The notes beneath the pieces are model-generated. The model saw only the letters and a list, made by a program, of their open reading frames with translations, did not search any database and was not told where the DNA came from. DNA of 64,000 nt from Lysobacteraceae bacterium (lineage in GTDB: Bacteria > Pseudomonadota > Gammaproteobacteria > Xanthomonadales > Rhodanobacteraceae), in contig SEHB01000005.1 of the NCBI GenBank assembly GCA_004143945.1, positions 62,001-126,000 on the forward strand, given 5' to 3'. The position numbers and the translations under genes were made by a program. Shown piece after piece: positions 27,263 through 34,849 of this stretch (positions are counted from its first letter, which is position 1; each line of letters opens with the position of its first letter).

Positions 27263-27766
27263 TCAGCGCGCCGCGTCCTGCAGCGCCTTCGCGCTCGCGA
27301 GATGGGCACGCAATGCCGGGAGCGTGCGCCGTGCGAGCGCACGCAGGTCCGGGTCCGCGCCGAGCGAGGCCTCGCGCTCGTACAAGGCGAGCTGGGCGGC
27401 GTGTTCGATGACCAAGGCCTCGAGCAGGCGGCGATCGAAGTCCTCGCCGGTCAGCGCGCCGAGTTCGGCTTCCCGTTGGTCGGCGCCCGCATCGACGCTG
27501 TCCGGCAAGCCGAATCCCCTGTCGCCCGCGATCCGCGCGATATCCGCGTTCGTCGCTGCCTGGTCGCGCGCGATGTCGCGCCCGAGCGTCTGCACGCGCA
27601 CGTTGGTCGATCTCGCGTCGGCCATCTCGCCAAGCGCCACTGCGGCCATGCCGGCCGAAGTCGCCGCAGACGCGAACGCCTGACCTGCCTGGCCTGCCTG
27701 GTCCTGCGCACGCGCGGCGCCGGCCGCGCCGAGTGCGGTGCACGCGATCAGGACGAACTTCCACAT
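27263..27766 (-). CDS. Secreted DUF4142 protein
   Basis: 167 aa from ATG 27766 with signal peptide MWKFVLIACTALGAAGAARA. The mature part is an all-helical DUF4142-type (ferritin-like) bundle: FASAATSAGMAAVALGEMA, VQTLGRDIARDQAATNADIA, then LLEALVIEHAAQLALYEREA and LRALARRTLPALRAHLASA. The family is widespread, periplasmic and of unknown function. The 239 bp to the cyanophycinase gene (28006) contain no gene. Confidence 0.8.
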   Translation of the reverse strand: MWKFVLIACTALGAAGAARAQDQAGQAGQAFASAATSAGMAAVALGEMADARSTNVRVQTLGRDIARDQAATNADIARIAGDRGFGLPDSVDAGADQREAELGALTGEDFDRRLLEALVIEHAAQLALYEREASLGADPDLRALARRTLPALRAHLASAKALQDAAR

Positions 27767-28005
27767 GGTCTTCGCCTCCGCAGGGTACCTGCAGTGACGA
27801 TACGCGCGCTTTCGCAACGCCGGCTGACGCAGGCGGGCCCGCCGAGGGCGTGCCCCTGCATGGCCACCCCGGGGAGTGCGGCCATGCAGGCGACACGCGG
27901 CAGGCCGCAACGGGGAGGCGCCCGCGCAACGGCCTGCGCATCATTCAACGCGCAAACGCGGCCGATCCCGCCATCGATCCGGCGAAGCGCGTCGAGCGCC
28001 GCGGT

Positions 28006-29940
28006 TCAGCGCACGTCGCCGACGATCGCGTCCCCGGCGTAGATCGCGACATGCGGCACGCCATCGCCGCCGATCCAGCCGCGGTACATGCCCTCGGTAT
28101 TGAACGGGAACGCGAACGTGCCGTCGCTCGCGAGCGCGATCGCGCCGCCGTCGCCGCCGGCCTTCGGGATCTCCCCGTTGATCACGTCGTGCGCGGCGCG
28201 GCGCACCGACTGTCCCGCGAGCCGCATGCGCGCGCAGACCTCGTGCGCAGCGGCTGCGCGGATGTAGTACTCGCCCCAGCCAGTGCCGGACACCGCGCAG
28301 CGCGCATCCGCCCAGGTGCCTGCGCCGATGATCGGCGAGTCGCCGACGCGGCCGTAGCGCTTGTTGGTCATGCCGCCGGTCGAAGTACCCGCGGCGAGGC
28401 GGCCCTGCGCATCGAGCGCGACTGCGCCGACCGTGCCGAAGTACGCCTTGCCGCCGTCGACGCGCGCGACGCCGTCGGCCTCCTCGCGCAGCGCCTTCTG
28501 CAGCTGCTGCCAGCGCTTGTCGGTGCGGAAGTACGATGGATCGACGAGCGCGACGCCCTGCTCCTTCGCGAACGCCTCGGCGCCGTCGCCGACCATCATC
28601 ACGTGGCGCGACTTTTCCATCACCGCGCGCGCGAGCAGGATCGGGTTCTTCACGCGGCGCACGCCGGCGACCGCGCCGGCCTTGCCGCTCGCGCCGTCCA
28701 TCAGCGATGAATCGAGCTCGTTCCTGCCGTCGTGCGTGAACACCGCGCCGCGGCCCGCATTGAACTGCGGCGCATCTTCGAGCAGGCCGATCGCGGCGGT
28801 GACCGCATCGAGCGCGGCACTGCCGGCCGCGAGCCGTGCGTGGCCCGCGCGCAACGCCGCTTCGAGCGCCGCGCGCGCGGCCGCCTCGTCGGCCGGCGTC
28901 ATGCCGGCGCGTTCCACCCCGGCGCCGCCATGGATCACGAGCAGCGGCGCATCCATCGCGAGCAGGACGCCGTCCTGCACCGCGTAATGGCGCTCGAACA
29001 CGGGCCGCTCGACGCGCGCATCGGGAAGGTGCAGGCGCGAATCCACGCCGACGCCGACCGTCTCCACGCGTGCCAGCCGCATCGGCTCGTCCTCGACCTG
29101 CGGCGCGAAGCCGCCCTTGACCACGGTCGCGCCCGCGCCGGGCGCGTTTGCGTACACGCGCGCGTTGCCGTCGCCATCGACCGCGACCGCGGCGTCTTCG
29201 TCGACGCCGAGGCCGAGCAGCGGCCGCCCGGCGATCGATTCGGCCTTCGCGACGAACGCGACGAGCCGCCCGAGGCGGTTGCGCTCGGTGAAATGGGTGT
29301 CGGTCACGACGCCGTGCAGCAGTGCGATGTCGAGGAAACCGGATTCGATCGTGTTCTCGCTGCCGAGCGGATCGGCGAGCGCGCGCGGGCTGGTCTGGCT
29401 GCCGCCGTCCATCGCGCCGTACAGGTATTCGCCGAGCATCGCGAGGCCGGCGCTGGTGCCGCCGAGCGGCTTGCCGGCGCGCACGTGCGCGTCGAGCGCC
29501 GCGGCCACCGGCGTGCCGCGCCAGTACCTCACGTAGCGCGACTGGTCGCCGCCCGCGATGAAGATGCCGTCGGCGCGGCGAAGGCTGCGCAACATCGTGC
29601 GGTCGCTCGCCGATTCGCGATCCTTGAACACGAAGGTCTCGACCGACGCGATGCCGCCGACCTCGTAGTAGAACTCCTCGCCGATCTCGCCGGCCTGCGA
29701 GGCACGCAGCACGACGATGTGGCCGTTGCCCGCGCGCTGCATGAACCAGCGCAACGAATCGAAATTGCGGTCGCCGCCGCCCATGAGCAGCAGACCCGGC
29801 TGCACGGGGCCCGGCGTCCCCGCGCCGCGATCGCCGAGCAGGTAATGCCCGAGGCTCGCCGCGTGCGCCGGCAGCGCCAGCACGCCGGCGAGCAACGCGA
29901 CTGCAAACGCCCATCGATTGACGCCCGGGGTTCCGGTCAT
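28006..29940 (-). CDS. Secreted cyanophycinase-isoaspartyl peptidase fusion
   Basis: 644 aa from ATG 29940, with AGGAG 8 nt upstream and a signal peptide (hydrophobic WAFAVALLAGVLALPAHA). Residues about 30-330 are a peptidase S51 cyanophycinase domain: LLLMGGGDRNFDS, FIAGGDQSRYV and the nucleophile in GGTSAGL (Ser163). Residues about 338-640 are an Ntn-type isoaspartyl peptidase/L-asparaginase: LVIHGGAG, FNAGRGAVFTHDG and GTVGAVALD with the self-processing Thr503, then TSTGGMTNKRYGRVGDSP. Cyanophycinase releases beta-Asp-Arg from cyanophycin and isoaspartyl dipeptidase splits that dipeptide, so one exported polypeptide could carry out both steps. Divergent from the sigma/anti-sigma/receptor genes, 104 bp apart. 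Confidence 0.9.
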   Translation of the reverse strand: MTGTPGVNRWAFAVALLAGVLALPAHAASLGHYLLGDRGAGTPGPVQPGLLLMGGGDRNFDSLRWFMQRAGNGHIVVLRASQAGEIGEEFYYEVGGIASVETFVFKDRESASDRTMLRSLRRADGIFIAGGDQSRYVRYWRGTPVAAALDAHVRAGKPLGGTSAGLAMLGEYLYGAMDGGSQTSPRALADPLGSENTIESGFLDIALLHGVVTDTHFTERNRLGRLVAFVAKAESIAGRPLLGLGVDEDAAVAVDGDGNARVYANAPGAGATVVKGGFAPQVEDEPMRLARVETVGVGVDSRLHLPDARVERPVFERHYAVQDGVLLAMDAPLLVIHGGAGVERAGMTPADEAAARAALEAALRAGHARLAAGSAALDAVTAAIGLLEDAPQFNAGRGAVFTHDGRNELDSSLMDGASGKAGAVAGVRRVKNPILLARAVMEKSRHVMMVGDGAEAFAKEQGVALVDPSYFRTDKRWQQLQKALREEADGVARVDGGKAYFGTVGAVALDAQGRLAAGTSTGGMTNKRYGRVGDSPIIGAGTWADARCAVSGTGWGEYYIRAAAAHEVCARMRLAGQSVRRAAHDVINGEIPKAGGDGGAIALASDGTFAFPFNTEGMYRGWIGGDGVPHVAIYAGDAIVGDVR

Positions 29941-30044
29941 TCCACGACTCCTGCCGTTGCGCGGCGCAGCGCCGCATTCGAACTCCGGGACGAACGACGG
30001 CCCGGCTTCCCCCATGTCGGCGCGCCGCGCGCTAGAGTCGCGCC

Positions 30045-30641
30045 ATGGCCACCGACCTCGACGACTGGTTCGTACGCGAGATCCTCGCGCACGAACGCGC
30101 ACTGGTGCAGTACCTGCAGCGGTGCTGGCCGCAGCGCGACGAGCACCATGACCTGCTGCAGGAAGTGTACGCGCGCGTGCACGAAGCCGCCGGTCGCAGC
30201 CGGCCGACCACGCCGAAGTCGTTTCTGTTCGCGACCGCGCGCCATCTGATGGCCGATCGCGCGCGTCGCGCGCGCGTGGTTTCGATCGAACCGATGGGTG
30301 ATTTCGAGCCCTCGAACGTCTACCTCATCGACGAGAGGTCGCCCGAACGCTGGATGGGCGCGCGCCAGGCGCTCAAGCGGCTGGCCGAGTCACTCGAGCG
30401 ACTACCCGACCGCTGCCGCGAAGTCGTCTGGCTGCGCCGGGTCGAGGAACTGTCGCAGAAGGAAGTCGCCCAGCGCCTCGGCATCAGCGGGAAAACCGTG
30501 GAGAAGCACCTGGCCAAGGGCATGCGCCTGATCGCCGACCACCTGTATGGCGGCGGGTTCGCGCCCGGCGACGAGGACGCGGCGGAGCCCTGGGCCGAGG
30601 CCGAAGAGGACGAAGGACATGCACGACAGCAGGCGGATTGA
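30045..30641 (+). CDS. FecI-type ECF sigma factor
   Basis: 198 aa. Sigma region 2 (about 15-75: HERALVQYLQRCWPQRDEHH, DLLQEVYARVHE) and region 4 (about 120-170: LERLPDRCREVVWLRRVEEL, SQKEVAQRLGISGKTVEKHL). The acidic C-terminal tail overlaps the fecR-like gene by 23 bp. FecI-type sigma factors are held by a FecR partner until a TonB-dependent receptor signals substrate binding, then transcribe the receptor gene. The gene order here is exactly sigma, FecR, receptor. Confidence 0.92.
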   Translation: MATDLDDWFVREILAHERALVQYLQRCWPQRDEHHDLLQEVYARVHEAAGRSRPTTPKSFLFATARHLMADRARRARVVSIEPMGDFEPSNVYLIDERSPERWMGARQALKRLAESLERLPDRCREVVWLRRVEELSQKEVAQRLGISGKTVEKHLAKGMRLIADHLYGGGFAPGDEDAAEPWAEAEEDEGHARQQAD

Positions 30642-31683
30642 ACAGACCGCCGCCGAGTGGCTGGCGCGATCGGATGCAGGCGACTGGAACGAACGCGACG
30701 CAGCCGCGCTCGACCAGTGGCTCGCGAGCGCGCCGCGCCACCGCGTCGCGTACCTGCGCCTGCAGGCGGCCTGGCGCGAAGCCGGTCGCCTGCGCGCGCT
30801 CGCCGCGGGCCTGCCCGCAGGCGTCGTGCCGCCGCGTGGCTCGTGGGGAAGGGGATGGCGCACCGGCCTCGCGGACGAAGCGCGCGCCCCGGACCTGCAG
30901 GACACCGTGTTCACGCCGCGCGCACGCCGCGACGCCCGCGCGCGTCGCTGGCGCCACGCACTCGTCGCGACCGTCGCGATCGCGCTCGCGGGTTCGGTGG
31001 GCTGGGCCGGATGGCAGCTTGGCGGCCGCCAGGAAGCGCAGTACGCAAGCGGCGTCGGCCAACTGGAGACGGTCGCGCTGATCGATGGTTCCACCGCCGT
31101 GCTCAGCAGCGACAGCCGCCTGCGCGTGCGCATGACGCGAGGCGGGCGCGAGATCGCGCTGCTGCAGGGCGAAGCGTACTTCGACGTCGCGCCGGATCCC
31201 GCGCGACCGTTCGTGGTGGTCGCCGAGGATCGCCGCGTGGTCGCGGTCGGCACGCGCTTCTCGGTGCGCCGCGACCACGCCGAGCTGCGCGTCGTGGTGA
31301 CCGAGGGCAAGGTCCGCCTCGATCGCGCCGCAGGCAGCGACGGACGTGCGACGCCGGTCTCGCTGCTGCCGGCGGGCAGCGTCGCAACCGCCGGGCGCGA
31401 CGGCGTGCTCGTGCGTTCGCTCACGGTGGCCGAGGCGGAACGCTACCTCGAATGGCGCAGCGGGTTCCTTGCATTCGAGGATGCGACGCTCGCCGCGGTC
31501 GCATCCGAGTTCAATCGCTTCAATACGCGCAAGCTCGAGCTCGCGGACGCCGAGGTCGCGCAACTGCGCGTCGGCGGCAACTTCCGCTGGGCCCAGGCCG
31601 AGGACTTCGTGAAGCTGCTCGAACTCGGTTTCCCGGTGCGCGCCGAGCGCCTCCCGGACCGGATCGTGCTGCACAGCCGCTGA
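30619..31683 (+). CDS. FecR-type anti-sigma/signal-transducing membrane protein
   Basis: 354 aa from ATG 30619 (AAGGA just upstream), overlapping the sigma-factor gene. N-terminal cytosolic FecR_N/DUF4880 segment (about 5-60: AAEWLARSDAGDWNERDAAA), one transmembrane helix (about 117-136), a periplasmic FecR domain (LIDGSTAVLSSDSRLRVRMT, ALLQGEAYFDVAPDPARPF) and a C-terminal STN-like domain ending in LELGFPVRAERLPDRIVLHS. It should relay the receptor signal across the inner membrane to the FecI-like sigma factor. Confidence 0.92.
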   Translation: MHDSRRIEQTAAEWLARSDAGDWNERDAAALDQWLASAPRHRVAYLRLQAAWREAGRLRALAAGLPAGVVPPRGSWGRGWRTGLADEARAPDLQDTVFTPRARRDARARRWRHALVATVAIALAGSVGWAGWQLGGRQEAQYASGVGQLETVALIDGSTAVLSSDSRLRVRMTRGGREIALLQGEAYFDVAPDPARPFVVVAEDRRVVAVGTRFSVRRDHAELRVVVTEGKVRLDRAAGSDGRATPVSLLPAGSVATAGRDGVLVRSLTVAEAERYLEWRSGFLAFEDATLAAVASEFNRFNTRKLELADAEVAQLRVGGNFRWAQAEDFVKLLELGFPVRAERLPDRIVLHSR

Positions 31684-31771
31684 TGTCGGGCGGCGGATGG
31701 GGGGAATCGCCGACTCGTTCGTCCTGATCACGCAGAAGGTGCCGTCCCGAGCACCGGGGGAGTCCTGTTCC

Positions 31772-34849
<3,078 letters not shown>

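Follow-up and report, generated by a model that had tools for sequence, protein, structure and literature searches.

A predicted exported fusion of a cyanophycinase-type and an isoaspartyl peptidase-type enzyme in a conserved four-gene module that shares a promoter-like site

Introduction

Can both hydrolytic steps of cyanophycin breakdown be carried by one exported protein, and what would the locus encoding such a protein do? The question is raised by a gene in the stretch of DNA analysed here (the window, 64,000 nucleotides), which a preliminary description had read, from the sequence, as an exported protein with a peptidase of family S51 followed by an Asparaginase_2 domain. The cyanophycin utilisation loci described in the available part of PMC10206079 comprise a cyanophycinase gene, iadA or iaaA, and a transporter gene; there, among 52 genomes that encode both a cyanophycinase and an isoaspartyl dipeptidase but lack cphA1, 45 have the two genes clustered, which was interpreted as scavenging. 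The words 'fused' and 'fusion' are absent from the text of PMC10206079, and a search of literature titles and the opening parts of abstracts, with subscription journals mostly outside its coverage, found no paper on this fusion.

Results

The fusion gene and its protein

The preliminary description gave the coordinates without a strand; the open reading frame is on the minus strand (Table 1) with its stop codon at 28006-28008, and the plus-strand reading of the same interval is interrupted by an internal stop. A Pfam domain search found both of the expected domains in the expected order and above their gathering scores: Peptidase_S51 at residues 114-258 (2.9e-10) and Asparaginase_2 (PF01112) at residues 332-634 (2.7e-108, 362.2 bits against a gathering score of 27), the second match being full length (positions 1-309 of the 309 in the profile). 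Against the NCBIfam models, the fusion protein scored 107.5 bits with the cyanophycinase equivalog TIGR02069, under the cut-off of 126.6, and 303.9 bits with the beta-aspartyl-peptidase equivalog PRK10226 (NF007589), under the cut-off of 567, so neither half is a strict NCBI equivalog member. Chance read-through of two adjacent genes was considered as an origin of the long frame and rejected: the same join is full length in another 19 family genomes, and therefore the reading frame is no accident; it is also open in 74 of the best 80 named loci. Thirteen of the 19 family fusions aligned with the window protein over its whole length.

Table 1. Features of the locus, with positions in the window
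Feature	Positions	Strand	Basis and remarks
Fusion gene, 644 aa: predicted exported S51 cyanophycinase + IaaA-type isoaspartyl peptidase	28006..29940	-	ORF, Pfam, NCBIfam, alignment
Signal peptide-like N-terminus, residues 1-27 (Arg, hydrophobic core, AHA/AS)	29860..29940	-	Read from sequence
S51 half, residues 28-325	28966..29859	-	Alignment to CphB 3en0, CphE residues (PMC3235067), conservation
Ntn half, predicted alpha chain, residues 332-502	28435..28947	-	Pfam and solved relatives
Ntn half, predicted beta chain, residues 503-644, nucleophile Thr503	28009..28434	-	Beta-chain starts of solved relatives
ECF-type promoter-like site upstream of fusion, GGGAA-N12-TTCGTC	29989..30011	-	Aligned intergenic regions, pattern counts
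ECF sigma factor, divergent from fusion	30045..30641	+	Pfam Sigma70_r2, r4
FecR-type anti-sigma/regulator	30619..31683	+	Pfam FecR, DUF4880; listed ORF from 30547
ECF-type promoter-like site upstream of TonB receptor, GGGAA-N11-TTCGTC	31702..31723	+	Pattern counts
TonB-dependent receptor with STN signalling domain	31772..34849	+	Pfam STN, Plug, beta-barrel; listed ORF from 31697

Active sites of the two halves

Both nucleophiles lie where the preliminary description had placed them, Ser163 in GGTSAG (from residue 160) and Thr503 in GTVGAVALD (from residue 502), and sequence alignments show that the catalytic partners in both halves are present and conserved. The strong solved relatives of the S51 half are three cyanophycinases only, 3en0, 7uqw and 7uqv (2.6e-18 to 7.6e-16), and PepE-type chains match it weakly (E about 0.05). 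Ser163, His216 and Glu248 align with Ser132, His174 and the Glu of GIDED in CphB (3en0), and the same alignment gives Gln133, Asp214, Thr215, Arg220, Arg222 and Arg225 as pocket residues. According to the sections of PMC3235067 available, the critical residues of CphB are Gln101, Asp172, Gln173, Arg178, Arg180 and Arg183, and CphE, with a Ser-His-Glu catalytic triad, retains this set except for Thr in place of Gln173. The pocket in the window is the CphE set, i.e. Thr215 occupies the position of CphB Gln173.

We followed these residues in an alignment of 23 S51 halves (20 family fusions and three split loci, the window included) and in one of 36 chosen fusions. Gln133, Asp214, Arg220, Arg222, Arg225, Ser163 and His216 were invariant in both (23/23 and 36/36). 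Thr215 was Ser in 3 of the 23 halves and at least 90% conserved among the 36 fusions, and Glu248 was Gln in 7 of the 23, at least 90% conserved among the 36 and present in all 80 named loci (the best 80 of 432 S51 relatives). Of the ten fusions from family genus g22, seven (L046, L047, L051, L053, L054, L055 and L056) have GVDQD instead of the expected GVDED; their S51 half either can do without the Glu or is altered in activity. The S51 genes that adjoin cphA in five relatives all carry DQHF, the CphB form (5/5).

Among solved chains, 2zak (1.4e-81), which we take to be E. coli IaaA, matched the Ntn half best. Thr503, Thr521, Arg531, Asp534 and Thr553 were invariant in all 36 chosen fusions; they presumably correspond to residues 179, 197, 207, 210 and 230 of EcAIII, after which we assign their roles (Thr503 as nucleophile, the others as its partners). 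The deposited beta chains of the half's best solved hits begin at the residue matching Thr503. Autocleavage before Thr503 is predicted between positions 28435 and 28434, and the predicted chains after signal removal and cleavage have computed masses of 49.8 and 14.4 kDa.

Export signal

The preliminary claim that the protein is exported agrees with its N-terminus: by eye, residues 1-27 resemble a Sec signal peptide ending in AHA before AS, and the stretch of 11 residues with the highest hydrophobicity in the protein begins at residue 13. Export was scored across loci by a home-made signal-peptide rule, not a trained predictor, and the rule picked out 74 of the 74 fused named loci; among the control starts it picked out 0/66 from sigma genes, 0/66 from FecR genes and 64/72 from TonB receptor genes. 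The fusion protein would act in the periplasm or outside the cell.

Neighbouring genes

Of greater weight than the protein itself, and absent from the preliminary description, is a conserved module of four genes sharing a promoter-like site, i.e. the fusion gene together with the sigma, FecR and TonB receptor genes. The last three occur in the same order at all 19 other family fusions, and all three are present at 63 of the 74 fused named loci. We set the FecR start at 30619 by comparison with a relative (L074) whose FecR open reading frame begins MHDSRR, and the receptor start is probably 31772 because a promoter-like site sits in the first codons of the listed open reading frame. The receptor's nearest solved relatives match its plug and STN regions only and are mostly siderophore and B12 receptors.

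Eight of the 74 fused named loci show no sigma or FecR gene. The receptor alone is missing at L112, L114 and L128, where the contig end was reached first; L109, L134, L148 and L151 are without sigma and FecR; and at L145, L146, L147 and L153 the stretch examined holds the fused gene and no sigma, FecR or receptor gene. Seven of the eight loci named as Sphingomonadales carry the receptor and none of the eight carries sigma or FecR in the stretch examined. Five Sphingomonadales loci (L141, L143, L149, L150 and L152) have an S51 gene alone with a divergent TonB receptor gene, neither sigma nor FecR being present in the stretch examined, and L139 has S51 alone and no receptor, the stretch examined there extending only 244 bases upstream. 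When the open reading frames of 80 loci were clustered, with clusters read as antisense shadows set aside, the 16 largest clusters held no further neighbour common to more than 24 loci. A DUF4142/DUF305 exported-type protein is encoded downstream of the fusion (27263-27910, minus strand); it had no hit in the 19 other family loci.

Promoter-like sites

The aligned intergenic regions contain GGGAA...GTTCGTC, an ECF-like form, oriented toward the fusion. Sites were counted with a strict pattern, GGGA(A/T)-N12-NNCGTC, and on the receptor side GGG(A/G)(A/T)-N11-13-NTCGTC was accepted as well. A site preceded the fusion at 74 of 87 distinct sigma-bearing loci and at 3 of the 15 where no sigma gene was found, and preceded the receptor at 78 of 83 and 0 of 10 respectively; the loci are related, and therefore these counts are not independent events. 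Upstream of the fusion, the strict pattern is absent in 13 of the 87 sigma-bearing loci. On the wrong strand of the same stretches in sigma-bearing loci there was no match on the fusion side (0/90) or, with both forms, on the receptor side (0/86), and the strict form alone matched 56 of 2100 random windows of 310 bases. A first, over-strict pattern had matched 46 of 89 sigma-bearing loci, 3 of 15 loci without sigma and 2 of 8900 shuffles.

The pattern GGGAW-N11,12-TTCGTC has 15 matches in the window's genome, two of them at this locus, and its reverse has none. The idea that the site is unique to this locus is ruled out by the 13 similar sites elsewhere, which may mark other ECF-controlled genes. 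A variant with a spacer of 13-15 was rejected, as its five matches in the genome included none at this locus.

Occurrence and origin of the fusion

The survey of how widespread the fusion is found it at full length in 20 of 233 family genomes, in 7 of the 26 genera by row count, and in 51 of 398 order genomes (E 1e-150), with five further partial matches. At 1e-130 it was present in 2 of 369 genomes of the class sample and 3 of 398 of the phylum sample, the window's genome and G233 being counted in both, and at 1e-40 in 5 of 249 genomes from the order to which G1225 belongs, by inference Sphingomonadales. There was no second match to the protein in the window's genome (1e-3). Among named relatives, Dokdonella fugitiva strains are the closest (83% for the S51 half), and the window's genome is probably Dokdonella. 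The best 80 of 432 S51-half relatives, a set biased toward the window's kin, comprise 74 fused loci and six with S51 alone; by NCBI name they include Pseudoxanthomonas (21), Thermomonas (7), Luteimonas (5), Xanthomonas (5), Dokdonella (3) and Arenimonas (3), with 12 unplaceable. Among the named sphingomonads the gene is fused in Sphingobium (L148) and Sphingomonas (L151), and S51 stands alone in Novosphingobium (L149, L152) and Sphingomonas (L150). Plasmid pSA1 of Novosphingobium resinovorum (L223) has an open fusion beside a receptor and no sigma or FecR, and a second Novosphingobium plasmid matches over 94% of the query. pSA1 is a 1.76 Mb plasmid typed as conjugative, and therefore the fusion may move between strains.

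Cyanophycinase and peptidase are separate neighbouring genes at nine loci in the set compared. At each of the five junctions inspected (L058, L060, L071, L180 and L181) the separate peptidase starts with a signal-like N-terminus of its own, and all of these loci except L071 adjoin a sigma gene. In the Ntn tree, the gammaproteobacterial and alphaproteobacterial fusions fall in separate, class-specific clades, each of which includes unfused genes. A single fusion origin was rejected when all 25 fused Ntn halves were constrained to one clade (p 3.66e-88), a value to be read with the points that the grouping was picked after the first tree, that the trees were quick, that G1225 is present twice (L188 and L194) and that replacement of the Ntn half would give the same rejection. 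In the S51 tree, the alphaproteobacterial sequences lie inside the clade of the window's gammaproteobacterial fusions, except for L188, a long row that was placed apart; the starred branches imply at least four changes of fused label, among which gain and loss are indistinguishable. Because the alphaproteobacterial fusions are built on another IaaA lineage, the join probably arose at least twice. The Ntn clades being split and the S51 halves together, either related S51 enzymes were joined to different IaaA enzymes or the Ntn half was swapped.

Cyanophycin synthesis in the same genomes

Neither CphA1 nor IadA gave anything above cut-off in the window's genome. Production of cyanophycin by this organism was rejected, the best CphA match reaching 53.1 bits against a cut-off of 850, with no CphA1 match at 1e-30. 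Across the 24 module-bearing genomes examined, CphA1 was above cut-off in five and had no match at 1e-30 in the other 19 (the window's included). Because five of the 24 have CphA1, scavenging is not the sole possible setting of the module. In these five Lysobacterales genomes (L242-L246), which also have a CphB-type S51 gene, a second, partial CphA-like match adjoins CphA1; four of them carry the fusion on a different contig, and in the fifth it lies at a distance of about 475 kb. For Lysobacter capsici, the available part of PMC4742617 describes a cyanophycinase gene with a cyanophycin synthetase gene after it. On the Deinococcus ficus plasmid pDFI2 (L224), cphA and the genes for isoaspartyl peptidase and cyanophycinase are consecutive, the peptidase gene preceding that of the cyanophycinase; the annotated ends of the three genes overlap by 4 and 20 bases.

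Discussion

The fusion is probably a bifunctional exported enzyme that degrades cyanophycin. Recurrence of the arrangement across many related bacteria suggests a system dedicated to scavenging, and we think it likely that the locus scavenges cyanophycin or a closely similar beta-Asp-linked polymer, fed by TonB and induced by its ligand. Substrate, autocleavage, export, transport and signalling are here all inferred, and the scheme would run as follows. The TonB-dependent receptor would bind the polymer or its oligomers at the cell surface and move them inward, and its STN domain would signal via FecR to the ECF sigma factor, which would then transcribe both the fusion gene and, divergent from it, the receptor gene from their matching promoters. 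The fusion protein would be exported by Sec; its S51 half would free beta-Asp-Arg dipeptides, and its Ntn half, after cleaving itself before Thr503 into chains of about 50 and 14 kDa, would hydrolyse the dipeptide outside the cytoplasm to Asp and Arg, both of which could be taken up by ordinary amino-acid transporters.

The enzyme might instead target another isoaspartyl-linked substrate, i.e. side-chain-linked or isomerised peptides such as aged protein fragments, or lasso-type or modified peptides imported by the receptor. The TIGR02069 cut-off is not reached and the receptor's solved relatives, matching only its plug and STN regions, give no cargo; in the parts of the sources available, family S51 takes in peptidases with other targets, e.g. 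MccG (PMC9239234), and one IaaA and one IadA from cyanophycin clusters were promiscuous on beta-aspartyl dipeptides (PMC10206079). Against this, the CphE pocket, including its Arg-rich motif, is conserved across the aligned fusions and PepE-like S51 proteins match weakly, and we regard another substrate as unlikely. It is very improbable that the fusion digests cyanophycin of the cell itself or of its kin, released by lysis, rather than foreign polymer: CphA1 does occur in a minority of the 24 module-bearing genomes examined, but most of them, with the window's, have no match at 1e-30, and the five makers have a separate DQHF-type S51 gene beside cphA, with the fusion located elsewhere. Least probable of all is that one half is a catalytically weak structural passenger retained for stability or dimer formation, as the Gln at Glu248 in some S51 halves and the six S51-alone loci (five of them beside a receptor) might suggest, since the window's two active sites are complete, the active-site residues other than Glu248 and Thr215 are invariant among the 36 fusions, and the repeated joining of the same two enzymes argues that both halves are used.

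The locus resembles several known systems. In the comparison with the extracellular cyanophycinase CphE (Pseudomonas alcaligenes DIP1 / P. anguilliseptica BI), made through the residues named in the available part of PMC3235067 only, the S51 half shares the Sec-type signal peptide, the Ser-His-Glu triad and the pocket with Thr for CphB Gln173; CphE, however, is a single enzyme of 43.6 kDa that yields dipeptides, whereas the fusion adds an isoaspartyl peptidase in the same chain. With IaaA / EcAIII (plant-type isoaspartyl aminopeptidase, Ntn hydrolase, PF01112) the second half shares the full-length domain, the Thr nucleophile, the partner Arg and Asp and a matching alpha/beta boundary, but here it is predicted to be exported and is joined behind a cyanophycinase. 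As in the cyanophycin utilisation loci, to judge from what is available of PMC10206079, both activities occur together in genomes without cphA1, but here they are in one polypeptide and are accompanied by an ECF sigma/FecR pair and a TonB receptor.

The sigma, FecR and receptor genes are adjacent and in the same order as FecI-FecR-FecA, with an STN-bearing receptor; unlike in that system, the promoter-like site is also shared by a hydrolase gene running divergently, and the ligand of the receptor is unlikely to be an iron chelate. Citromicrobium is a relative of the sphingomonads. The available part of PMC3400609 places a TonB receptor near a cyanophycinase gene in Citromicrobium sp. JLT1363 and there mentions no fusion or sigma/FecR pair; this locus may be similar to L141, L149 and other loci with S51 alone.

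A more far-reaching reading is possible, and we put it forward tentatively: one self-processing exported protein would be a polymer-to-amino-acid machine in which the dipeptide passes from the S51 to the Ntn half; a dedicated TonB receptor would sense and import cyanophycin and, through its own sigma factor, turn on the genes for itself and for the enzyme; and the fusion would have arisen on at least two occasions, once in Gammaproteobacteria and once in Alphaproteobacteria, from the joining of related cyanophycinases to different IaaA lineages. A single enzyme taking cyanophycin to free Asp and Arg may also be useful in practice, because the production route in PMC3235067, as far as the available part describes it, stops at dipeptides. 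If the scavenging function holds, several Lysobacterales genera would possess a whole pathway for scavenging a bacterial nitrogen store, complete with a testable inducer, importer and enzyme, and a FecA-like signalling receptor would gain a cargo beyond iron or vitamins.
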